DNA of 64,000 nucleotides. Origin: Planktotalea sp. Lineage in GTDB: Bacteria; Pseudomonadota; Alphaproteobacteria; Rhodobacterales; Rhodobacteraceae. Both the position numbers and the translations under genes were made by a program. The stretch spans positions 124,001-188,000 of the forward strand of contig NZ_JABBAL010000008.1 of NCBI RefSeq assembly GCF_018607995.1, read 5' to 3'. Shown here in pieces: positions 9,565-18,965 of this stretch; position 1 is the first letter of the stretch, and each line of letters begins with the position of its first letter. The notes beneath the pieces are model-generated. The model saw nothing but the letters and a program-made list of their open reading frames with translations, did not search any database and was not told the DNA's origin.

Positions 9565-10551
9565 ATGCTCAACATCGGACTTTTGGGGGCAGGGCGCATC
9601 GGTCAGGTTCATGGTGCAACACTGGCGCAAATGACAACTGCACGCGCAGCGGCGGTGTCAGATTTCCTGCCGGATGCGGCGGCGGCTTTGGCCGCTAAGC
9701 TCGGCGCGACAGCGATGAGCACGGAAGAAATTATCGCCGACAAAAGCATTGATGCGGTGGTCATTGGCACGCCGACAACAACGCATTACGATATCATTCA
9801 CGAAGCTGCCGCAGCTGGCAAAGCGATCTTTTGCGAAAAACCTGTGGATCTGTCAACGGACCGCATTCGCGAATGCCTAGCGGTCGTTGAAAAGGCGGGC
9901 GTGCCATTTATGACTGCATTCAATCGCCGTTTTGATCCCAGCTTCGCGTATTTGCAAAAGCAGATCACAGATCAGGTGATCGGCAATGTGGAGATCGTCA
10001 CAATCCTGTCGCGTGATCCTGCGCCGCCCCCCATCGGTTACATTAAAACCTCTGGTGGAATTTTTCGCGATATGATGATCCATGATCTTGATATGGCGCG
10101 CTTTTTACTAGGTGAGGAGCCTGTGGAGTTGACCGCTGCCGCGTCTTGTCTTGTTGATCCAGAGATTGGGAACGCCGGAGATTTCGACACCGCTATCGTA
10201 AATCTCAAGACCGCGAGCGGCAAACTTTGCCAGATCAGCAACTCGCGTCGCGCCACCTACGGCTATGATCAACGCATCGAAGTCCACGGTTCCAAAGGCA
10301 TGTTGCGCGCGGATAATATGCTGGAGAACACGGTTGAGGTGTCCAACGGGCAAGGCTTTCGCACAGCGCCGACACAGCCCTTTTTCTTAGAGCGTTACGC
10401 CGCTGCGTACCGCGCTGAGATGGAGCATTTTGTTGCTTGTTTGAACGACAAAGTTACGATGAAGCCGACCGGCCTTGATGGTTTGAAAGCGCAAATGTTG
10501 GCGGATGCGGCAGACAAGTCCGCGCGCGATGGCAAGACGGTTTCTTTATAG
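9565..10551 (+). CDS. iolG: Inositol 2-dehydrogenase (IolG)
   Basis: NAD-dependent dehydrogenase of 328 residues of the Gfo/Idh/MocA family. It starts MLNIGLLGAGRIGQVHG (dinucleotide site), has IFCEKPVDLSTDRI with the family lysine, AFNRRFDPSF and GGIFRDMMIHDLDMARFLLGE, all typical of myo-inositol 2-dehydrogenase. It follows iolJ by four bases in the same operon and would catalyse the first oxidation of inositol to an inosose. It is the third Gfo/Idh/MocA gene in this locus. Confidence 0.9.
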   Translation: MLNIGLLGAGRIGQVHGATLAQMTTARAAAVSDFLPDAAAALAAKLGATAMSTEEIIADKSIDAVVIGTPTTTHYDIIHEAAAAGKAIFCEKPVDLSTDRIRECLAVVEKAGVPFMTAFNRRFDPSFAYLQKQITDQVIGNVEIVTILSRDPAPPPIGYIKTSGGIFRDMMIHDLDMARFLLGEEPVELTAAASCLVDPEIGNAGDFDTAIVNLKTASGKLCQISNSRRATYGYDQRIEVHGSKGMLRADNMLENTVEVSNGQGFRTAPTQPFFLERYAAAYRAEMEHFVACLNDKVTMKPTGLDGLKAQMLADAADKSARDGKTVSL

Positions 10552-10591
10552 GGCCAATCCGGTATCCTTCCCGCAAAGAGGGGTGCATAGC

Positions 10592-11959
10592 ATGGCGACA
10601 AGTTTTTCCGCGTTCGTTCACGATCTTGAATTTAACGACCTGCCCGAAGACTTGCTAGCGCTGCTAAGACGCAGCTTTCTAGACACGATGGGCGTCGCAG
10701 CGATTGGTGCCGGCACAGAGCTGAGCGATATCGCTCGTCGCAGCGCAATGGCGCTCTTTGGCGCGGGCACTGTGGGCGGCACGCGCATGTTAATGGATGG
10801 GCGCACGTGCAGTCCTGCGGGCGCTGCGATGGCGGGTGCATTTACTGTTGATAGCATTGACGCTCATGATGGCAGCACACCGAACAAGGGCCATGCGGGA
10901 TCTGCGGTCTTCCCTGCGGTTCTCGCCGTTGCAGATGCGATGCGTCAGAAGGGGCAGTCCGTCATGGGTCGTGATCTCGCACTGTGGTTGGCGCTGGCCT
11001 ATGAGGTGAGCTACCGCGCAGGGCAGGTGCAACATGCTACCTGCGCGGATTATCACACATCGGGGGCTTGGACCGCTGTCGGCGTTGCTGCATCTGTGGC
11101 GCGTATGTTGGGCTGTGATACGGAGCAGATACGCCACGCCGCTGGCATTGCAGAGTATCACGGACCGCGCAGCCAAATGATGCGCTGCATCGATTTTCCG
11201 ACCATGGTGCGCGATGGTGTCGGCTGGGGCGCGCCCTCGGGTGTCACGGCGGCCTATCTTGCGCGCGAAGGCTTTACAGGCGCGCCTGCACTGACCTGCG
11301 AAAGTACAGAGGCGGAGTCGTTTTGGAGCGACCTGGGCAAGCGTTGGCTGACGTTGGAGCACACGCACTACAAGCTATACCCCTGTTGTCGCTGGGCGCA
11401 TTCCTCGCTTGATGGTGTGCAAAAACTAATGCGAGAGAATGATCTGCACCACACAGATATCGCAAATGTTGAAATCAAAACCTTCCACTATGCGACGCGC
11501 CTTGCAGGGTATGAGCCAAAAACGCTTGATGAATTCAGCTATTCCATTGCCTTTCCAGTCGCTTGCATGATCGTTCGCGGCACCATTGGCTCCAATGAGT
11601 TGACGCCGGAAACCCTGACCGACCCTGATATCTTAAGGATCAGTCGTGCCACCACTTTGATTGACGATCCCGAATTGACAAGGCGCAGTGTCTCCAAACG
11701 TTGGGCGCAAGTCGCGTTGACCCTAAAGAATGGTCAGCGCATTCAAGGTGTCCCAATGACGCCGCGTGGTGACGTTGATTTACCAGTGTCAGATGCCGAA
11801 ATCAGTGCAAAATTTCATCTGCTTGCGGATGAGGGGTTGGGACTTGAGCGAGCCAATGAGCTTGAAAGGCTGTGTGCTGAGTTTGATACATTGGACAGCG
11901 CAGGGTTTGCACTGCTTTTGGATCTGTGCCTCTCGGGGGCCTCAATCTCGCAGTCTTGA
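10592..11959 (+). CDS. MmgE/PrpD family protein
   Basis: Member of the MmgE/PrpD (2-methylcitrate dehydratase / iminodisuccinate epimerase) superfamily, 455 residues from ATG 10592, which has a purine-rich AAAGAGGGG in front; the open frame reaches further upstream into iolG but without a ribosome site. Family segments include FLDTMGVAAIG, AFTVDSIDAHDG, NKGHAGSAVFPA, LALAYEVSYRAG and YPCCRWAHSSLDG. It appears to be the last gene of the iol operon. A dehydratase or epimerase acting on a hydroxy acid from this pathway is possible; the substrate is not deducible. Confidence 0.85.
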   Translation: MATSFSAFVHDLEFNDLPEDLLALLRRSFLDTMGVAAIGAGTELSDIARRSAMALFGAGTVGGTRMLMDGRTCSPAGAAMAGAFTVDSIDAHDGSTPNKGHAGSAVFPAVLAVADAMRQKGQSVMGRDLALWLALAYEVSYRAGQVQHATCADYHTSGAWTAVGVAASVARMLGCDTEQIRHAAGIAEYHGPRSQMMRCIDFPTMVRDGVGWGAPSGVTAAYLAREGFTGAPALTCESTEAESFWSDLGKRWLTLEHTHYKLYPCCRWAHSSLDGVQKLMRENDLHHTDIANVEIKTFHYATRLAGYEPKTLDEFSYSIAFPVACMIVRGTIGSNELTPETLTDPDILRISRATTLIDDPELTRRSVSKRWAQVALTLKNGQRIQGVPMTPRGDVDLPVSDAEISAKFHLLADEGLGLERANELERLCAEFDTLDSAGFALLLDLCLSGASISQS

Positions 11960-12010
11960 TCTAGCGCATCGGCTGGTTTCTGCGCGCCTGTAAAATCGGG
12001 CGCTTGATTG

Positions 12011-12032
12011 TTGGTATTTTATAAAATAACAA
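12011..12032. promoter_or_regulatory. Candidate Zur box upstream of zur-zrg operon
   Basis: A 22-bp palindrome with one mismatched pair (positions 12014 and 12029) has the perfect 12-bp core ATTTTATAAAAT. It ends 25 bases before the zur start codon. AT-rich palindromes of this kind are typical of Fur/Zur-family operators, so zinc-dependent autorepression of the zur-zrg unit is likely. The palindrome is seen directly, binding is inferred. Confidence 0.65.
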
Positions 12033-12057
12033 TTTCTTTGAAGCTGGAGTATATTGC

Positions 12058-12444
12058 ATGAGAAAATCAGCGGATGTGCGGCAGGCGGACATCTTGGAGG
12101 TTTTGAAAACCTGCGAAAAACCAATGACTGCTTATCAAATCCTTGAGCAACTTCAGCGCTCTGAGCCGGATATCGCACCGCCGACGGTCTATCGGACATT
12201 GTCTGCTTTGACCGATCAAGGTCGCGCGCATCGGTTGGAATCCATCAAGGCCTTTGTGCCGTGTCGCTGCAATCACGCAGAAAGTGTACCGGTCCTCGCG
12301 ATCTGTGAAACATGCGGTTTGGTTGATGAACATGACGGAAGCGATCTTCTACCCAAGCTAACGGAATTGACGGACCAAAACGCCTTTCGCGCGGACCGCC
12401 ATATCGTAGAAATTCATGGGCACTGCCAACGGTGTGTTGCCTAA
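12058..12444 (+). CDS. zur: Fur-family zinc uptake regulator (Zur)
   Basis: Metalloregulator of 128 residues. The N-terminal winged helix includes TVYRTLSALTDQGRAHRLES; the C-terminal half has the structural zinc pairs CETC and CQRC and metal-ligand histidines (CNHAES, DEHDG, HIVEIHGHC). It represses zinc uptake genes when zinc is sufficient. It lies directly upstream of a ZrgA-type gene and an ABC transporter, with a palindromic operator in front, which supports Zur rather than Fur or PerR. Expected length is a little longer in many Zur proteins, but the domain set is complete. Confidence 0.88.
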   Translation: MRKSADVRQADILEVLKTCEKPMTAYQILEQLQRSEPDIAPPTVYRTLSALTDQGRAHRLESIKAFVPCRCNHAESVPVLAICETCGLVDEHDGSDLLPKLTELTDQNAFRADRHIVEIHGHCQRCVA

Positions 12445-12472
12445 GACCTATCTGACCAATAAGGGACCGATT

Positions 12473-13057
12473 ATGAAAAACGCTCTTTCACTTTTTGCAC
12501 TTATCGCAGCTTTTCCTGCTGTCGCCGAAGAGACACGCCAGCTTGATGCGCATGAACATGGTGTGGGTACATTGAATATTGCGATCGATGGCGCAGAAGT
12601 TGCGATGGAGTTTCATGCGCCCGGCGCGGATATCGTCGGGTTTGAGTATGAGGCCAGTAGTGCCGTGGATTTAGCTGCAATTGAGACTGCTCTTGCGGCT
12701 CTCAATGCGCCTTTGGAACTATTTGCGATGTCCCCAGCGGCGGGCTGCGTGGTAAACAATGCGCGCGCCGAATTGGAGACAGAGGGCGAGCAAGAAGATC
12801 ATGACGACCATGATGACCACGAAGATCATGACGACCATGAAGATCACGAAGACCGCGGCGATGACGCTGGCCACACGGAATTCCATGCAGAGTATGCTCT
12901 GAGCTGTTCTTCAGCCGATGCTCTGAACGAGATCACCTTTCGTTATTTTGACGCTTTCCCCAATGCTGAGGAAGTTGAGGTGCAGCTCGTTACGTCTAAC
13001 GGTGCCCAAGCTTTTGAAGTCACGCGCGCGGCCCCGGTCTTGGATCTGGATCGCTAA
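12473..13057 (+). CDS. zrgA: ZrgA-like zinc uptake protein (DUF2796), periplasmic
   Basis: Protein of 194 residues with an N-terminal signal peptide (MKNALSLFALIAAFPAVAEE). Mature N-terminus QLDAHEHGVGTLNIAIDG is typical of DUF2796/ZrgA. A low-complexity Asp/His/Glu-rich segment (about residues 105-130) with repeated DHDDH/EDHED units is a probable zinc sponge. ATG 12473 is chosen because it starts the signal peptide; the open frame extends back into zur. ZrgA is part of the Zur-regulated ZrgABCDE zinc importer described in Vibrio. The next four genes complete the system. Confidence 0.88.
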   Translation: MKNALSLFALIAAFPAVAEETRQLDAHEHGVGTLNIAIDGAEVAMEFHAPGADIVGFEYEASSAVDLAAIETALAALNAPLELFAMSPAAGCVVNNARAELETEGEQEDHDDHDDHEDHDDHEDHEDRGDDAGHTEFHAEYALSCSSADALNEITFRYFDAFPNAEEVEVQLVTSNGAQAFEVTRAAPVLDLDR

Positions 13058-13063
13058 GTACGC

Positions 13064-13759
13064 ATGACGGATGCGGTTCTTAACTTGTCTGATGTCGCTT
13101 TTGGCTGGGCGGGAGGTGCGGCGTTTTCATTGCGGGTCGCTGATTTCCGTGTGGCCAAGGGTGAATCCGTGTTGTTGCTGGGTGAAAGCGGATCGGGCAA
13201 GTCGACGCTCTTGTCGCTGATCTGCGGCACGATTGTGCCGGATAGCGGACGGATCGAGATAGCGGGCCAAGATATTACCGAACTATCTGCCAGCAAGCGC
13301 GACAAGTTCAGAGCGGAACAGATTGGCGTTATCTTTCAGCAGTTTAACCTGCTGCCGTTTGGTACTGTAGCCGACAACATAATGCTACCTTTGCGCTTTG
13401 CGCCTGCGCGCAACAAGCAGGCGGGCGATGCGTTGGCGAAGGCAACTGAACTGTGCTGCGCCCTTGGTCTACCTGACGGTGTGACCAACAGTAAAGCAAC
13501 CGCGCTCAGCGTTGGCCAACAACAACGTGTCGCAGTTGCGCGTGCGCTCATTGGCCAGCCGCCACTAATAATCGCGGACGAACCGACCTCTGCGCTTGAT
13601 GCAAACAGCCAAGCGGCCTTCCTCGAATTGCTCTTTGCCCAAGTGCGTTCAAACGAAACTTCCTTGCTGATGGTCAGCCATGATCCACGTCTGGGCGCGC
13701 GTTTTGATCGGGTTATAGATATGCAAGACATCGCGCGTGTTGAAAGAGGTGCGGCATGA
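13064..13759 (+). CDS. ABC transporter ATP-binding protein (LolD/MacB-like), zinc uptake operon
   Basis: ATPase of 231 residues with Walker A GESGSGKS at 40-47, signature LSVGQQQRVAVARAL, Walker B LIIADEPTSALD and switch region LLMVSHDPRLGARF. Sequence alone resembles MacB/LolD-type ATPases, but the gene starts six bases after zrgA and overlaps the permease start by four bases (ATGA), placing it in the zinc operon. It is likely to power the Zrg-type importer. The LolD-like ancestry means a mechanical or substrate-handing role rather than classical ZnuC transport is possible. Confidence 0.85.
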   Translation: MTDAVLNLSDVAFGWAGGAAFSLRVADFRVAKGESVLLLGESGSGKSTLLSLICGTIVPDSGRIEIAGQDITELSASKRDKFRAEQIGVIFQQFNLLPFGTVADNIMLPLRFAPARNKQAGDALAKATELCCALGLPDGVTNSKATALSVGQQQRVAVARALIGQPPLIIADEPTSALDANSQAAFLELLFAQVRSNETSLLMVSHDPRLGARFDRVIDMQDIARVERGAA

Positions 13760-15006
13760 TCCTGCGCCTTGCCATCGCCTCGCTATTTGCACGAGCTTTG
13801 ACCGTTGGCATGACGATCCTTGCGATTGCTTTATCCGTAGCGCTCTTTCTCGGGGTCGAGAAGATAAGGACAGGAGCAAAAGCCAGCTTTGCGGATACGA
13901 TTTCGGGGACGGATTTGATTGTCGGCGCGCGCTCAGGTTCCGTTCAATTGCTGCTTTATTCGGTGTTTCGCATAGGCAATGCGACCAACAATGTGACGTG
14001 GCAAAGCTATAAAGACATCTCTGCGCGCCCTGAAGTGGACTGGATCGTACCGATTTCCTTGGGCGACAGTCACCGCCAGTTCCGTGTCATGGGCACGTCC
14101 GTTGCGTTCTTCGAGCATTATAAATATCGTCAAGGCCGTTCCCTTGCTGTCGCGGATGGGGCGATCTTGTCCGATCTTTTCGACACAGTCATCGGCGCCG
14201 ATGTTGCGGCGACTTTGGAATATGAGATTGGTGACCCGATTATCGTCGCGCACGGGCTGGCCTCTTTTGCGGAGCATAAGGACCAGCCTTTCCGCGTGTA
14301 TGGTATCTTGGAGAAAACCGGCACACCAATTGATCGCACTGTGATCGTCAGCATGGAAGCTATTGAGGCGATCCATGTGGATTGGCAGGGTGGCGCGCAG
14401 GTGCAGGGCCAAGCCACGCCCGCTGATGAACTGCGCCAGATGGAGCTGACACCGAAAGCGATCACCGCCGCGTTGGTCGGTGTGAAAAGTCCTTTGCAAA
14501 TTTTCCGCCTGCAACGCGCGATCAATGAATACGGCCAAGAACCCTTGCTCGCCATCTTACCGGGCGTCGCATTGCAAGAACTTTGGGGCATCGTTGGCAT
14601 CGCCGAAACTGCCCTGCTTGGTGTGTCTTTTATGGTTGTTGTGACTGCTTTGATCGGGATGATGGCGACGATTTTCTCTAGCCTGAACGAGCGGCGACGA
14701 GAGATGGCAATCTTTCGCGCGATGGGTGCGCGCCCTGCCACGATCCTCAGTATACTGGTGCTGGAAGCGGTTGTCATGGCGGCGCTCGGGGTGCTTCTGG
14801 GGCTTGGCTTGCTTTATCTTGGGCTATTCATCGGCCAACCGATATTGGATCGCGAGTTCGGCCTATGGCTGGCGATTGATCCACCCAGCCTGCGCGAAGT
14901 GTGGGTCATGCTAGCTGTCATCGCAGCTGGCGCAATTGTGAGCATGGTGCCAGCTATAAGGGCTTACCGACTGTCGGTGGCTGATGGTATGGTGGTGAAA
15001 ACGTGA
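13756..15006 (+). CDS. FtsX-like ABC transporter permease, zinc uptake operon
   Basis: Inner-membrane protein of 416 residues with the MacB/FtsX topology: an N-terminal membrane helix (about residues 12-32), a large periplasmic domain, then three C-terminal helices (about 275-300, 325-355, 375-400). The cytoplasmic loop SSLNERRREMAIFRAMGARPATIL is the family hallmark that contacts the ATPase. It overlaps the ATPase gene and precedes two DUF3299 genes, the same set as in zrg operons. Direction of transport is not evident from sequence. Confidence 0.85.
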   Translation: MILRLAIASLFARALTVGMTILAIALSVALFLGVEKIRTGAKASFADTISGTDLIVGARSGSVQLLLYSVFRIGNATNNVTWQSYKDISARPEVDWIVPISLGDSHRQFRVMGTSVAFFEHYKYRQGRSLAVADGAILSDLFDTVIGADVAATLEYEIGDPIIVAHGLASFAEHKDQPFRVYGILEKTGTPIDRTVIVSMEAIEAIHVDWQGGAQVQGQATPADELRQMELTPKAITAALVGVKSPLQIFRLQRAINEYGQEPLLAILPGVALQELWGIVGIAETALLGVSFMVVVTALIGMMATIFSSLNERRREMAIFRAMGARPATILSILVLEAVVMAALGVLLGLGLLYLGLFIGQPILDREFGLWLAIDPPSLREVWVMLAVIAAGAIVSMVPAIRAYRLSVADGMVVKT

Positions 15007-15028
15007 CACCCTGATTGAGGTGAAAGAC

Positions 15029-15529
15029 ATGCTAAATCGTAGATCGACTTTGATGTTGTTGTCAGGCGCGCTTGCGACGCCCAAAACGGCACTCGCCGCC
15101 ACCCTGAGAGAGATCACCTGGGATGATTTGCTGCCCGCCGGCGTGCCCTATTCAGAGATCATCGGTGAAGGCGAACTCGACGAGGTCAACGACACGTGGA
15201 ACCCGATCTACGATGAAAACGCGACCAAGCTGAACGAGAGTTTGGATGGTTCTTACATCAAAATGCCAGGTTTTGTGATCCCGTTTGATATTAGCGCAAA
15301 GGGCGTCACAGAGTTTATGTTGGTACCCTATACGGGGGCCTGCATTCACATGCCACCACCGCCCGCGAATCAGCTGGTTATGGTGAATGCGAAAACCCCG
15401 TGGCCCAGCGATGATCTCTGGGATCCGATTTGGGTGATTGGCATGATGCGCACGCGATTGCAATCGACGGATTTGGGGCAAACTGGCTATGCGATCGTCG
15501 CGGATCAGATGGAAGTCTACGAATGGTGA
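15029..15529 (+). CDS. DUF3299 periplasmic protein, first copy
   Basis: Exported protein of 166 residues; ATG 15029 is preferred over GTG 15020 because TTGAGG at 15015-15020 is well spaced from it. An N-terminal signal peptide (RRSTLMLLSGALATPKTALA) has a twin-arginine-poor Sec form. The domain carries LREITWDDLLP, a KMPGFVIPFD strand and the conserved GACIHMPPPPANQLV, whose Cys and His are plausible metal ligands. DUF3299 proteins are encoded in zrg zinc import operons and thought to be periplasmic partners. The second copy overlaps its end. Confidence 0.82.
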   Translation: MLNRRSTLMLLSGALATPKTALAATLREITWDDLLPAGVPYSEIIGEGELDEVNDTWNPIYDENATKLNESLDGSYIKMPGFVIPFDISAKGVTEFMLVPYTGACIHMPPPPANQLVMVNAKTPWPSDDLWDPIWVIGMMRTRLQSTDLGQTGYAIVADQMEVYEW

Positions 15530-16020
15530 CGCGCCGCAGCCTTCTAGCAGCGTTAGCGGCGAGTGCCGTGATCCCGCAGATGCTAAGGGCGGAAGAGTTT
15601 TTTGATTTGGATTGGGTGGATTTGCTGCCAGCGAGCGACACCCCCATTCCGCAAGCATTTCGCGGTCTCATTGATCACGATCAACCGCCTTTGAGCAACC
15701 AACAACCGGCTTCAAGTGGCGTGCGCTCGGACTGGAACGGCCAGATCGTGCGTTTACCGGGGTTTATGGTGCCAATCGATCAAAGCGCCTCGGGCGTCAC
15801 CGCGTTTATCTTGGTGCCCTACGCGGGAGCCTGCGTGCACGTGCCACCGCCACCCGCGAACCAATTGGTCTTTGTCACAACTGAAACCCCCTATGAAAGC
15901 AGAGGTTTGTACGAGGCGATCAACGTGATTGGCATGTTTGGTATTTCGTCAATGCGGACCTACATCGCAGATGTCGGCTACGCCTTATCTGCCGACAAGA
16001 TTGAGCCTTTTCGAGTTTAA
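15523..16020 (+). CDS. DUF3299 periplasmic protein, second tandem copy
   Basis: Paralogue of the preceding gene, 165 residues, starting ATG GTG and overlapping it by seven bases. Signal peptide MVTRRSLLAALAASAVIPQ is followed by EEFFDLDWVDLLP, RLPGFMVPID and GACVHVPPPPANQLV, so the C-x-H-x-PPPPANQ core is intact. It has an extra segment rich in Gln/Ser after the first motif (about residues 45-65). Last gene of the zinc operon. Two tandem copies are not the usual arrangement I know for this operon. Confidence 0.82.
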   Translation: MVTRRSLLAALAASAVIPQMLRAEEFFDLDWVDLLPASDTPIPQAFRGLIDHDQPPLSNQQPASSGVRSDWNGQIVRLPGFMVPIDQSASGVTAFILVPYAGACVHVPPPPANQLVFVTTETPYESRGLYEAINVIGMFGISSMRTYIADVGYALSADKIEPFRV

Positions 16021-16107
16021 ATTGCCTTGCTTCGAGTGCAATGAATTGGACAGCCAAATCAGCACAAAGATTACTGGCAATGTTGTGTTGGGGGACCGTT
16101 TGAGTTG

Positions 16108-16130
16108 CCAAAAAACTAAGAAGTTTTTGG
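16108..16130 (-). terminator. Hairpin next to displaced tRNA 3' end
   Basis: CCAAAAA at 16108-16114 pairs with TTTTTGG at 16124-16130, with two more inner pairs across one bulge. Read on the minus strand it immediately follows the tRNA-Asn 3' fragment at 16128-16146, the place where the terminator of the original tRNA gene would be. The stem uses the last bases of the fragment. Confidence 0.45.
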
Positions 16131-16146
16131 CTCCGGCGGTAGGGAT
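16128..16146 (-). repeat. att-like repeat: displaced 3' end of tRNA-Asn
   Basis: These 19 bases (TGGCTCCGGCGGTAGGGAT) are identical to 31021-31039, the CCA end, acceptor strand and part of the T arm of the intact tRNA-Asn, and in the same orientation. Identity stops at 16147. A tRNA 3'-end copy with no tRNA body is the standard footprint of site-specific integration into a tRNA gene. Confidence 0.8.
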
Positions 16147-16735
16147 GATAAGTATTTTCTTAAATGCTATCTATCTATTTGTTTTTTTTATTTCTCGAAG
16201 GCGTTCTGATTTGATTTTTGTGCAACCTTGTGTGCTAGACTGGTTAAAGCACCCTCCTCATTCTCCCAACAACGATTTCAAGGTGCCTTTCGGTTCATCG
16301 ACACCACTGGTTTACACAATTCACACCCAGACCGTGTTTGAACCGGAGCAATTGTTGTGCGCTATTGGAGTACATATTGGCGAGAAGGAGCCATTCGCGG
16401 AGCTGCAGCGAAATAGTTGCTCGAAGTGAAAAGTAGCCTCTTATTTGCATATTGATTTCACGGGCGCTGCGCACGATCCATTGGCGAAGAAAGCCTATCT
16501 CGGCCGTGGTTTGATCGGCCTACTAAGAACATTCATTGTGTTCAAATTTATCAAAGCGCAAATCCCGTAAGCAGACCGATTTCGATCAGTTAACAATCAT
16601 GTACCGAAATGCAGGACATCGCTAACCTTGGGAATTTTTCTTACGCCTCGGCGGAATTTCCAAAAACGCAGGAAAGACTATCACAGCATGGCCTCTAAAG
16701 ATGATTGCTGGCGCGTTGAACAGCTCCTTGTTAAT
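16147..16735. other. Gene-poor edge of the island
   Basis: AT-rich stretch of about 590 bases with no convincing gene. The open frame covering 15929-16429 on the plus strand overlaps the DUF3299 gene, crosses the tRNA fragment and has no recognisable domain, so it is not called. No integrase or transposase remnant could be recognised by eye. Confidence 0.6.
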
Positions 16736-18118
16736 TCAAAGAGATTTTTTATCCGCCTTGCCTGCATTTCTACCTAGTACCGTCGCCGAAAGTAGACCGT
16801 TGCCAGATAAATATCCGTAGTCGCTAGATCCTGAAATCCCGCATGCTGCGCCTCCGCCAGCGAACAGTGTCCGGAAGGTTTGGCCATCGGACTTGATTAC
16901 GCGACCAGAAGCATTTGTTCGTAATCCCCCTTGCGTGTGGAACAAGGCACCGGTTACACGAACCCCGAAATAAGCTGGAGACAGGGGCTTCGCGTGGAAT
17001 GCCCGGCCAAACTCATCAGTGCTGCCAATAGGCAAACCTGAATGTGTTTCGCGAAGCGCTTGGGCTGGTAGCCCCATTCGAGTAGCCAAGCCTTCAATGG
17101 TTTCACATGTTTTAACCGCACCCACAGCCTCGGCCCTCTTGAAGTCCTCGAACTGACGGGCCACTTTCGCGATCCGCTCATCGAAAATCGCAAAAGCTTC
17201 TCCACCGGGCTGAGCAAGAACTGCGCGCGCAGCTTCGGAATACCCTTGCGTCTCGTTCCAAAAACGCTTGCCCGCGCGGTTCACTTGAAAACCGCCCTCC
17301 GTGATGACGGCCCAGGTGATCAAAATTCCATGTGGATGAGCGACGTTGCCATGTCCTTGATAGGCTCCCAAGTGCGAGACCTGCGCACCAATTTTTTCAG
17401 CCCATAGGATCGCTTCACCCTTGTTGCCATCATGCCCGAACCAAAGCCCGTCTCTGATCTGTGGCAGGTACCGTTCCACCAATTCACTGTTCCCGCCAAA
17501 GCCGTTGCATGCCAAAATAAGTCGCACGCATTTGATCGTTTCCTGCGCTCCATCTGGATTAGCAACTGATACGCCCACAATCTCGCCATCCTCGTGGAAC
17601 AATGCAAAAGCACGTCTTTCGCAGATGATGTCAATATCTAGCGCTTCGCACCTTGCGCGCAATGCATCGATTAACTCTGCACCGGATCTAGTAGGCAGGC
17701 CGTGCATGCGCCTGCGCGAATGTCCAGGGTAGTCAAAATTGTCCACGACAGAGAACGGTAATCCATGTGTTTGCGTCAACCAATCAATGACCTCTGCCGA
17801 ATCGGTAGCTATCTGCTCGACCAGAGATTGATCGTTTTCGCCCTTTGCCTTCGCTTGTATGTCTGCGGCAAACAAGTCAGGAGTGTCATCAATTCCGGCA
17901 GCGCGTTGGATGGCTGTGCCAGCGGCGGGGATAAGGCCTGCGGACAACGCGGTTGATCCGCTAGGCACAGCATCCGCCTCAATAACCAGAACATGTTGGC
18001 CTCGCTCATGTGCTGAGAGTGCGGCGATCATGCCGCAGGCACCAGCGCCTATAATCAGGGTTTCACATTCAATGTGATAGGCTGTCGGAGGTGTGGAAAC
18101 GTCAATTTTTGACGTCAT
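16736..18118 (-). CDS. FAD-dependent oxidoreductase, fumarate reductase/succinate dehydrogenase flavoprotein type
   Basis: Flavoprotein of 460 residues from ATG 18118 (GGGG upstream; an in-frame TTG at 18130 is less likely). N-terminal FAD site LIIGAGACGMIAALSAHERG, then VPSGSTALSAGLIPAAG, and the C-terminal FAD closure FRTLFAGGGAACGISGSSDYGYLSGNG are typical of FAD-binding dehydrogenases that oxidise or reduce carbon-carbon bonds of dicarboxylates or steroids. The start overlaps the lyase gene, so it is the last gene of the island's minus-strand operon. Desaturation of a succinate-like acid to an enedioate would fit the neighbours, but is inference. Confidence 0.82.
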   Translation of the reverse strand: MTSKIDVSTPPTAYHIECETLIIGAGACGMIAALSAHERGQHVLVIEADAVPSGSTALSAGLIPAAGTAIQRAAGIDDTPDLFAADIQAKAKGENDQSLVEQIATDSAEVIDWLTQTHGLPFSVVDNFDYPGHSRRRMHGLPTRSGAELIDALRARCEALDIDIICERRAFALFHEDGEIVGVSVANPDGAQETIKCVRLILACNGFGGNSELVERYLPQIRDGLWFGHDGNKGEAILWAEKIGAQVSHLGAYQGHGNVAHPHGILITWAVITEGGFQVNRAGKRFWNETQGYSEAARAVLAQPGGEAFAIFDERIAKVARQFEDFKRAEAVGAVKTCETIEGLATRMGLPAQALRETHSGLPIGSTDEFGRAFHAKPLSPAYFGVRVTGALFHTQGGLRTNASGRVIKSDGQTFRTLFAGGGAACGISGSSDYGYLSGNGLLSATVLGRNAGKADKKSL

Positions 18119-18965
18119 AACGCGCCCCAATTTCGAGCTGTTCCTTTGTTCCGATCACCTCATTCAGCCCATCAAAATCAAACATGCGATCTGCAAAAGG
18201 CTTGTTTGATCCGTTTGCATGCAAGCTATTGTAATAGGTCTGCGCAGTTCGCCCGATTGCGCGCACAATTCCACCCGGAAAGATCGCGATGGAAAAGCCC
18301 TGCTGCTCAAGATCATTCGCATCAGTAATTGGCGTCGCGCCGCCCTCTACCATATTCGCCAGCAGGGGAATGCGGCTTGCGAACTGCGCGCCAATGTATT
18401 CAAGTTGCGTGCGATCTTGCGGCGCTTCAACGAATAGAACATCTGCGCCAGCTTCAAGGTATGCTTCTGCGCGATCAAGGGCCGCTGAGAACCCTTCAAC
18501 GGCGATTGCGTCTGTGCGGGCGATAATCAGAGTCTCTCCGCTGGCGCGAGCATCGGCCATCGCGCTGATTTTCCCAGTCATTTCGGCGCATGAAATCAAG
18601 GATTTATTCGTGAGATGTCCGCAGCGCTTGGGGTAACTCTGATCTTCAAGCTGAAGGGCGCTCGCACCTGCACGTTCATAGGTGCGCATTGTTCTTTGGG
18701 CATTCAGAGCGTTGCCAAAGCCAGTATCAGCATCAATAATTACTGGTAGAGGCGTGCGATCAGCAATCAACGCCATGGTATCCGCCATCTCGCTTGCGGT
18801 GCTCAGGCCGATATCTGGGCGCCCAAGGCGCGTGTAGGCAACTGCTGCGCCACTCAGATAGAGCGCTTCAAACCCTGCATCGGTTGCAAGGACCGCCGTG
18901 AGTCCATCATAAACTCCAGGGGCCACAAGGATTTTGCTTTGTTGTAGGCGTGACTTTAGGCCCAT
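18102..18965 (-). CDS. Isocitrate lyase/PEP mutase family C-C lyase
   Basis: TIM-barrel enzyme of 287 residues; ATG 18965 has GGAGG seven bases upstream. It carries the metal site DADTGFG at 78-84 and the lyase loop KRCGH with catalytic C115, followed by NKSLIS. This KRCGH motif marks true C-C lyases (methylisocitrate lyase, dimethylmalate lyase) rather than PEP mutase or oxaloacetate decarboxylase. It would cleave a malate- or isocitrate-like acid to pyruvate or succinate plus a second fragment. Neighbouring LeuCD-type hydratase genes suggest the substrate is made by hydration of an enedioate. Confidence 0.85.
   Translation of the reverse strand: MGLKSRLQQSKILVAPGVYDGLTAVLATDAGFEALYLSGAAVAYTRLGRPDIGLSTASEMADTMALIADRTPLPVIIDADTGFGNALNAQRTMRTYERAGASALQLEDQSYPKRCGHLTNKSLISCAEMTGKISAMADARASGETLIIARTDAIAVEGFSAALDRAEAYLEAGADVLFVEAPQDRTQLEYIGAQFASRIPLLANMVEGGATPITDANDLEQQGFSIAIFPGGIVRAIGRTAQTYYNSLHANGSNKPFADRMFDFDGLNEVIGTKEQLEIGARYDVKN

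Follow-up and report, generated by a model that had tools for sequence, protein, structure and literature searches.

A Zrg-type, probable zinc-starvation operon with a linked second Zur-like regulator and a putative variant operator in a Planktotalea genome

We analysed a stretch of 64,000 nucleotides of the Planktotalea sp. assembly GCF_018607995.1 (contig NZ_JABBAL010000008.1, positions 124,001 to 188,000), hereafter the window, in which six genes lie on the + strand at 12058-16020, spaced by at most 29 bases or overlapping. They encode, in this order, a Zur-like repressor, a ZrgA-family protein, the ATPase and the permease of an ATP-binding cassette (ABC) system, and two DUF3299 proteins. 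A preliminary description of the window had proposed exactly this run, and it holds: the strand is the same throughout and all Pfam assignments of the six proteins exceed the family cut-offs. Judged by its protein families, the locus is a Zrg-type operon of a known type, and both these families and the setting in relatives connect it with zinc starvation. Our sequence comparison adds a linked second Zur-like regulator, a variant operator, and two old DUF3299 clades with twin-arginine translocation (Tat) signals. Among the papers listed in searches of the open-access literature, outside which subscription papers mostly fall, none was seen to describe a zrg-linked second Zur, its operator or Tat export of DUF3299; PMC7731109 points to a supplementary figure of ZrgA neighbourhoods that includes an alphaproteobacterial group.

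The operon is preceded by an operator-like dyad at 12012..12031 (TGGTATTTTATAAAATAACA, 9 of 10 pairs matching), a variant Zur box with the centre TTTATAAAA. The first gene (12058-12444) encodes a FUR-family protein of 128 amino acids, here called Zur2 (Pfam FUR, 36.3 bits, 6.9e-9). The product of zrgA (12473-13057, 194 amino acids) is a predicted secreted, His/Asp-rich protein that scores 181.9 bits with Pfam ZrgA (1.1e-53, cut-off 27.4) and 196 bits with the NCBIfam equivalog ZrgA_Zn_trans (cut-off 185), and its PDB matches are PA4063 (5.2e-28) and 8ezw, an entry named zinc-binding protein (1.3e-19). The zrgC-like ATPase of LolD/DevA/FtsE type (13064-13759, 231 amino acids) matches ABC_tran with 117.7 bits (7.8e-34), and the zrgB-like permease (13756-15006, 416 amino acids) matches FtsX (54.3 bits, 1.7e-14) and MacB_PCD (50.6 bits, 4e-13); the nearest permease in a tree of 96 rows is from Octadecabacter, with 86% identity. 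The two last genes belong to DUF3299 clades D1 (15029-15529, ZrgE-like, 1.1e-36) and D2 (15523-16020, 2.1e-36), with Pfam scores of 126.4 and 125.5 bits and the putative twin-arginine signals MLNRRSTLMLL and MVTRRSLLAAL. By comparison with relatives the D1 start is most likely ATG 15029 and not GTG 15020, and D2 starts at ATG 15523, overlapping the D1 stop. The proposed kinship to Zrg is thus borne out, by the ZrgA equivalog score together with the adjoining ABC ATPase, the FtsX/MacB-type permease and DUF3299.

That a Zur lies inside the operon is correct in part. Zur2 is closest to Zur, since the Zur model is its best NCBIfam match (80.6 bits, the next being Fur/PerR with 37.4 bits and less) and E. 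coli Zur its best PDB match (4mtd, 8.1e-17), but it is a second paralogue, as another Zur-like gene lies beside znuA on a different contig. The assembly comprises 40 contigs with 3.13 Mb in total, is 94.3% complete and encodes four FUR members; one of these genes, on contig C34, adjoins the ZnuA gene with a standard box between them, and its product also has the NCBI Zur model as its best match (112.5 bits, next model 28.9). These scores and positions identify the operon regulator as a second Zur-like protein beside the znu-linked one. E. coli Zur carries a structural CxxC...CxxC site and a regulatory H/C/H/E site. All four cysteines align in Zur2 (C83, C86, C123, C126), and of the regulatory site three of the four residues do. 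The linked regulators and the znu-locus Zurs differ in the stretch that we take to be the recognition helix: PPTVYRxLxAL or close forms in the former, and PPVAYRALDFL or one-residue variants in six Zurs from roseobacter znu loci, while two SAR11 Zurs have PPQVYRALxKL there.

A Zur-type box before the operon was to be expected of a Zrg system; it is present, with a centre unlike the standard. The dyads before linked zur genes read TGTTA-Y-TTTATAAAA-TAACA. In the window, 26 bases separate the end of the dyad from the ATG of the zur-like gene, and the distance from site to start codon is 26 to 33 bases in 12 of the 13 loci measured (a script missed the site of L098; L and G numbers are our own for loci and genomes). 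At the key operator position, linked sites have A in 15 of 16, and 25 unlinked sites have C (16), T (5), A (3) or G (1). C also stands there in the own znuA-zur box and in the gel-shift-tested motifs upstream of zur and znuA of Paracoccus denitrificans, GTTACGATATAACAT and its kin (PMC5387054). A strict variant operator, defined after the sites had been seen, occurs in 16 of the 18 linked operons for which a site could be detected and in none of the 24 such unlinked ones; these sites come from the 42 of 96 tree rows with a site passing the cut, the linked row L106 having been added by hand and 54 rows having none. For the one operator column, a Fisher test that leaves out the near-copies L130 and L042 and the unlinked T and G sites (15 A to 1 C linked, 3 A to 16 C unlinked) gives p 4e-6, a value confounded by relatedness.

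The genome scans point in the same direction. Allowing 3 mismatches, a scan of the Planktotalea genome returned the variant pattern a single time; the standard pattern matched at znuA-zur and otherwise, with 3 mismatches, only at the zrg site. Among 24 genomes scanned, with positions compared by calculation, the zrg promoter bears the variant pattern in every one of the 15 whose linked zur is intact, and these genomes hold three further sites, in G013, G123 and G193. Nine genomes have no intact linked zur (four with zrg, five without ZrgA); seven of them show no site, and G034 and G075 show one standard-centre site each. A reversed-pattern control gave 3 matches over the 24 genomes. We regard the change of the operator centre along with the linked regulator as a strong pattern of the sequences compared.

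The distribution of the linked gene bears on how this pattern arose. The permease tree was drawn from 103 ZrgA-bearing loci and the window, leaving out the duplicates L130, L107 and L089 and the fragments or loci with no full permease L047, L049, L118, L152 and L157. Linked zur is limited to one clade of 31 rows (SH-aLRT, the Shimodaira-Hasegawa-like approximate likelihood ratio test, 98), present in 18 and missing in 13, and because of this confinement one gain followed by several losses is the simplest reading of the tree. In 10 of 11 genomes of unlinked clade members, a homologue search found only a distant match (29-33%). The remaining genome, G192 (L097), holds a 67% copy as well, located on a different contig, which makes L097 a probable contig break instead of a loss. 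The search also covered two plasmid records, without the chromosomes, from unlinked members of the clade; neither holds a copy. L059, counted as unlinked throughout, has a remnant of 87 residues and a box with the standard centre.

Lineage drift could explain the variant operator in another way: the znu-linked Zur would control both znu and zrg, and the linked zur would be a redundant or decaying duplicate. The 13 of 31 clade rows without an intact linked zur, among them the broken gene of L059 (L097 being the probable contig break), point to frequent loss and agree with this, as do the arms TGTTA...TAACA that the zrg box and the znuA-zur box have in common. We consider it unlikely, because the regulator is intact in 18 rows of which 16 have the strict variant site, the position of the site before the start codon is steady, nine rows of this clade that lack the linked zur but have a site show standard or mixed centres, and the recognition stretches of linked and znu-locus regulators differ.

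Several observations nevertheless weigh against a private regulator with its own operator. The difference in operators could be shared ancestry, linked zur being in a single 31-row clade. A tree-aware pair test had only three independent comparisons on supported branches; on average 2.8 of them agreed and 0.0 were opposed, too few to reach significance, and drift by descent may still account for the difference. Two linked operons are exceptions (L090 with a standard right half, L095 with a standard left half), and three unlinked operons have A at the key position. In Zur2, H58, C69 and E91 align with the regulatory site of E. coli Zur, and the fourth residue is not directly aligned, H73 being near. 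The NCBI Zur cut-off of 167 bits is reached by neither Zur-like protein of the genome. It is also missed by the znu-linked Zur of Phaeobacter piscinae (114.3 bits) and by a SAR11 Zur (66 bits); as znu-linked Zurs fail it too, the cut-off does not discriminate here, and we keep the label Zur-like.

Relatives place the operon in the company of zinc genes. On plasmid p111 of Pseudooceanicola algae, a divergent run annotated znuB-znuC-repressor faces a run of znuA, two GTP-binding proteins (COG0523-type GTPases), DUF1826, DUF6525, zrgA, ATPase, permease and two DUF3299 genes. The SAR11 locus L156 (139-8475; Pfam) is a compact zinc locus in which znuA is divergent from znuC-znuB-zur-zrgA-ATPase-permease-DUF3299-CobW GTPase-WD40, and L140, also SAR11, has Zur, ZrgA, ATPase, permease and DUF3299 in the same order according to our own profiles. 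For half of its SAR11 genomes, PMC4771312 describes a zinc system of znuA together with a gene of the Fur family and other ABC components; these passages do not mention Zrg. In a tdaB mutant of Phaeobacter piscinae S26 a 'FurB homologue', OL67_003754, was reported to be less abundant, and znuA (OL67_003813), znuC (OL67_003815) and a zinT homologue were also down (PMC9942592). On pS26_248 the tags RS18930 (znuA) and RS18940 (znuC) have one constant offset, which carries OL67_003754 to RS18635, the zrg-linked regulator; this assignment is our arithmetic on locus-tag spacing and is not stated in PMC9942592. We set aside the idea that Zrg substitutes for ZnuABC. A PF01297 protein, a family that is not zinc-specific, occurs in 64 of 65 ZrgA-bearing genomes (the one without it is a metagenome-assembled genome of 2.4 Mb, and L121 is outside the count) but also in 59 of 61 genomes of the family. 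The coexistence of ZnuA with Zrg therefore says little, and this counts against leaning on it for an action beside ZnuABC.

The ABC pair is MacB/LolD-like and not ZnuBC-like, as had been suggested. The ATPase has LolD as its best NCBIfam match (167.5 bits, under the model's cut-off), followed by the DevA and FtsE models. The permease has only the FtsX and MacB_PCD domains and no ABC-3 domain in Pfam, and the binding protein of the operon matches only ZrgA, not the cluster A-I binding proteins of the ZnuABC type. By domain content the two proteins are a type VII ABC pair. The definition of MacB, a fused ATPase-permease chain with a MacA adaptor, does not apply to separate genes in an operon that has no adaptor.

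How such a pair deals with zinc has been read in opposite ways, as an importer in Vibrio and as an exporter in Pseudomonas, and the present loci bear on this question. In the published view of the Vibrio system, ZrgA would be the solute-binding protein and the permease pair would move zinc to the cytoplasm, in parallel to ZnuABC. A Vibrio cholerae znuA mutant needs zrgA at low zinc (PMC9820375), of three zinc-binding proteins of V. parahaemolyticus only the loss of zrgA led to poor growth at low zinc (PMC9817125), and the neighbourhoods in Pseudooceanicola and SAR11, where zrg lies with znu and zur, also speak for a straightforward second importer. We take this to be a serious possibility but not the one we expect to hold: the permease is of the MacB_PCD and FtsX kind with no ABC-3 domain, PMC12646458 names type VII systems that work on the cell envelope, and in a P. 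aeruginosa znuA zrmB strain the deletion of PA4065 lowered growth at low zinc and raised the activity of a zinc-responsive promoter but did not change the zinc content (PMC11481552).

For PA4063-PA4066 of P. aeruginosa, PMC11481552 instead reports a MacB-type system that exports pyochelin-cobalt. A system that is switched on by zinc starvation and exports a metallophore or a metal complex would suit the MacB-like domains of the permease, the cobalt build-up in the P. aeruginosa genetics (PMC11481552) and the HlyD-type adaptor gene that adjoins the ZrgA-free relative L088. The operon itself, which is what our search covered, has no adaptor or outer-membrane channel gene, the Vibrio phenotypes favour zinc supply, and SAR11 L156 has the operon in its znu run with no adaptor among its genes; an exporter seems improbable to us here.

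The DUF3299 gene had been described as doubled. There are indeed two genes, but each belongs to an old clade of its own, and the copies of one clade are retained or lost separately from those of the other. Their products have 37% identity, and in a FastTree of 161 DUF3299 rows the first window copy falls in the 51-row clade D1 (support 96; the nearest outside rows are SAR11) and the second in the 48-row clade D2 (support 98). A recent tandem duplication is ruled out by this tree and the low identity. Of 63 ZrgA-bearing loci with D1 or D2, the window excluded, 32 have both, 17 have D1 only and six D2 only (among them L042, with a split D1); seven have D2 with a secreted-looking protein that we call c4, and one has D1, c4 and D2. 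Both window copies keep the C-x-H-x-PPPPANQ motif noted before. An alignment of 36 members shows no change at its C, H, N and Q, which makes the motif a hallmark of the whole family and nothing peculiar to the pair.

Both window proteins have a twin arginine before a hydrophobic stretch, and similar signals are predicted in 96 of 97 relatives (D1 50/50, D2 46/47), compared with 1 of 25 gammaproteobacterial members, none of three SAR11 members and 2 of 18 from ZrgA-free modules. The rule counts a twin arginine up to 14 residues from the most hydrophobic stretch and was set after the misses of a first rule had been inspected; that first expression, which barred charged residues and proline-rich stretches, gave 24/50, 28/47 and 1/25 for D1, D2 and the gammaproteobacterial members. 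Tat export normally means folding before export, so with such signals D1 and D2 are probably exported already folded, and we infer that a metal or cofactor may be loaded beforehand. The case is weakened in that the motifs are predictions from sequence, and in that V. cholerae grew no differently when zrgD or zrgE alone was knocked out (PMC9820375), from which the role of DUF3299 may be minor. The second DUF3299 is no stand-in for zrgD, which belongs to a different family, DUF2607, in Vibrio (PMC9817125 Table 1). The closest solved relative of D1 is 4hsp (PA4066, 3.7e-28). A DUF3299 model with a mean predicted local distance difference test (pLDDT) score of 85.9 matches 4hsp of its own family clearly, with Z 17.2, and below it proteins with the oligonucleotide/oligosaccharide-binding (OB) fold with Z about 8; the latter likeness may be a mere common arrangement.

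Taken together, the locus is probably a Zrg-type zinc-starvation operon of a Rhodobacterales bacterium whose lineage gained its own Zur-type repressor, and we think it likely to work as follows. With zinc present, Zur2 would sit on the variant palindrome at 12012-12031 and keep its own operon off, while the other Zur, on a separate contig, would look after znu. At low zinc Zur2 would release, and ZrgA, the type VII ABC pair and the two DUF3299 proteins would be made. ZrgA would act as a periplasmic zinc catcher, and the DUF3299 proteins would leave by the Tat route. Most likely the ATPase would drive a motion of the periplasmic domain of the permease that makes zinc on ZrgA or DUF3299 available for uptake, an action beside ZnuABC and not a passage of zinc through the permease as in ZnuB. 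The sequences show the gene content, the second regulator, the difference between the operators, the Tat-type signals and, in relatives, the ties to znu and zur; that Zur2 represses, that zinc is the ligand and how each transport step proceeds are our inferences. The term importer is the literature's name for Zrg, which is needed for low-zinc growth in V. cholerae and V. parahaemolyticus (PMC9820375, PMC9817125), and would apply to the Planktotalea operon by analogy only; we lean towards periplasmic zinc handling that feeds uptake.

A wider idea, which we hold only tentatively and rather doubt in its full form, is that Zrg is no importer in the manner of ZnuB but a type VII mechanical machine for periplasmic metal, a general module with DUF3299 that is folded and perhaps metal- or cofactor-loaded ahead of Tat export, and that one roseobacter clade gave it a private zinc sensor and operator with a set point independent of the znu-linked Zur. 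DUF3299 and the ABC pair also occur without ZrgA, which suggests a more general periplasmic machine whose job is set by its partner. An ATPase, a MacB-like permease and DUF3299 were seen with no ZrgA match in the fetched stretches L066-L071, L073, L075 and L088. Their neighbours include amidohydrolases (L067, L088), an OprB porin (L069), an HlyD-type adaptor (L088) and in some a beta-lactamase-family protein; the tested neighbours in L071 and L073 are unrelated. The loci offer handles on these questions: some relatives have the linked regulator and others lack it, one strain has a broken copy, the two DUF3299 clades can be removed singly, and Tat dependence is likely. Cultured Phaeobacter inhibens carries the operon on a plasmid, and through the SAR11 locus this machine is also found in a group that is abundant in the ocean.

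Compared with known systems, ZrgABCDE of V. cholerae and V. parahaemolyticus has in common with the window ZrgA, an ABC ATPase, a MacB-like permease, DUF3299 (ZrgE) and the zinc-starvation context. It differs by having DUF2607 (ZrgD) and, in the fetched Vibrio loci, one DUF3299 without a twin-arginine signal, whereas the window operon has no ZrgD, two DUF3299 clades with putative twin-arginine signals, and a zur-like gene inside. PA4063-PA4066 have the same four families and provide the closest solved relatives (7ahw, 4hsp), but one DUF3299 gene, no linked zur and the reported exporter role. ZnuABC and Zur of Paracoccus denitrificans are alike in zinc starvation and Zur control, with a box centre, TATAACA, equal to that of the own znuA-zur, and unlike in that a cluster A-I binding protein and an ABC-3 permease are different protein families. 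The pPGA1_262 operon of Phaeobacter inhibens DSM 17395 (L082) has the order Fur-family, DUF2796, ATPase, permease, DUF3299, with a linked Zur2 and the variant operator; it has only D1, with an IS21 element next. This element (L082:10366-12512) follows the single DUF3299 gene at about the place that the second copy occupies in other relatives.

Around the window operon, the 5' neighbour at 10505-11959 encodes an MmgE/PrpD-type protein (Pfam), and the next convincing 3' gene is 16736-18130 on the opposite strand. The longest frame between 16020 and 16736, of more than 100 amino acids, has no Pfam match; the operon has no room for ZrgD (DUF2607), and this is the only frame of such length behind it, so the statement covers operon and flank. 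ZrgD seems to be optional, as it is reported absent in V. fischeri and P. profundum (PMC9817125). Promoter and terminator scans of 11900-16800 yielded no more than shuffled sequences did.

The protein c4, of about 340-390 amino acids, lies beside the DUF3299 genes in several zrg operons. We found it in L044:8031-9047, L045:8120-9289, L050:4030-5073, L061:3704-4759, L066:3663-4703 and L074:4250-5407, and also in L121, L124, L126 and L164. No Pfam match was obtained for two members, no NCBIfam match better than E 0.05 for four, and no Foldseek match at E 0.001 or better for a model (pLDDT 78.4). Its predicted mature N-terminus is A-C-x-F, with H next in all but L074. Lone DUF3299 genes, with no ABC pair in the fetched stretch, were seen on Rhizobium, Comamonas and Phaeobacter plasmids (L083, L085 and L086). 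Genome G013 carries two near-identical zur-zrg operons, L042 and L043 (C1:2312113 and 2521444), about 209 kb apart, and in one of these copies the reading frame of the first DUF3299 gene is broken in two.

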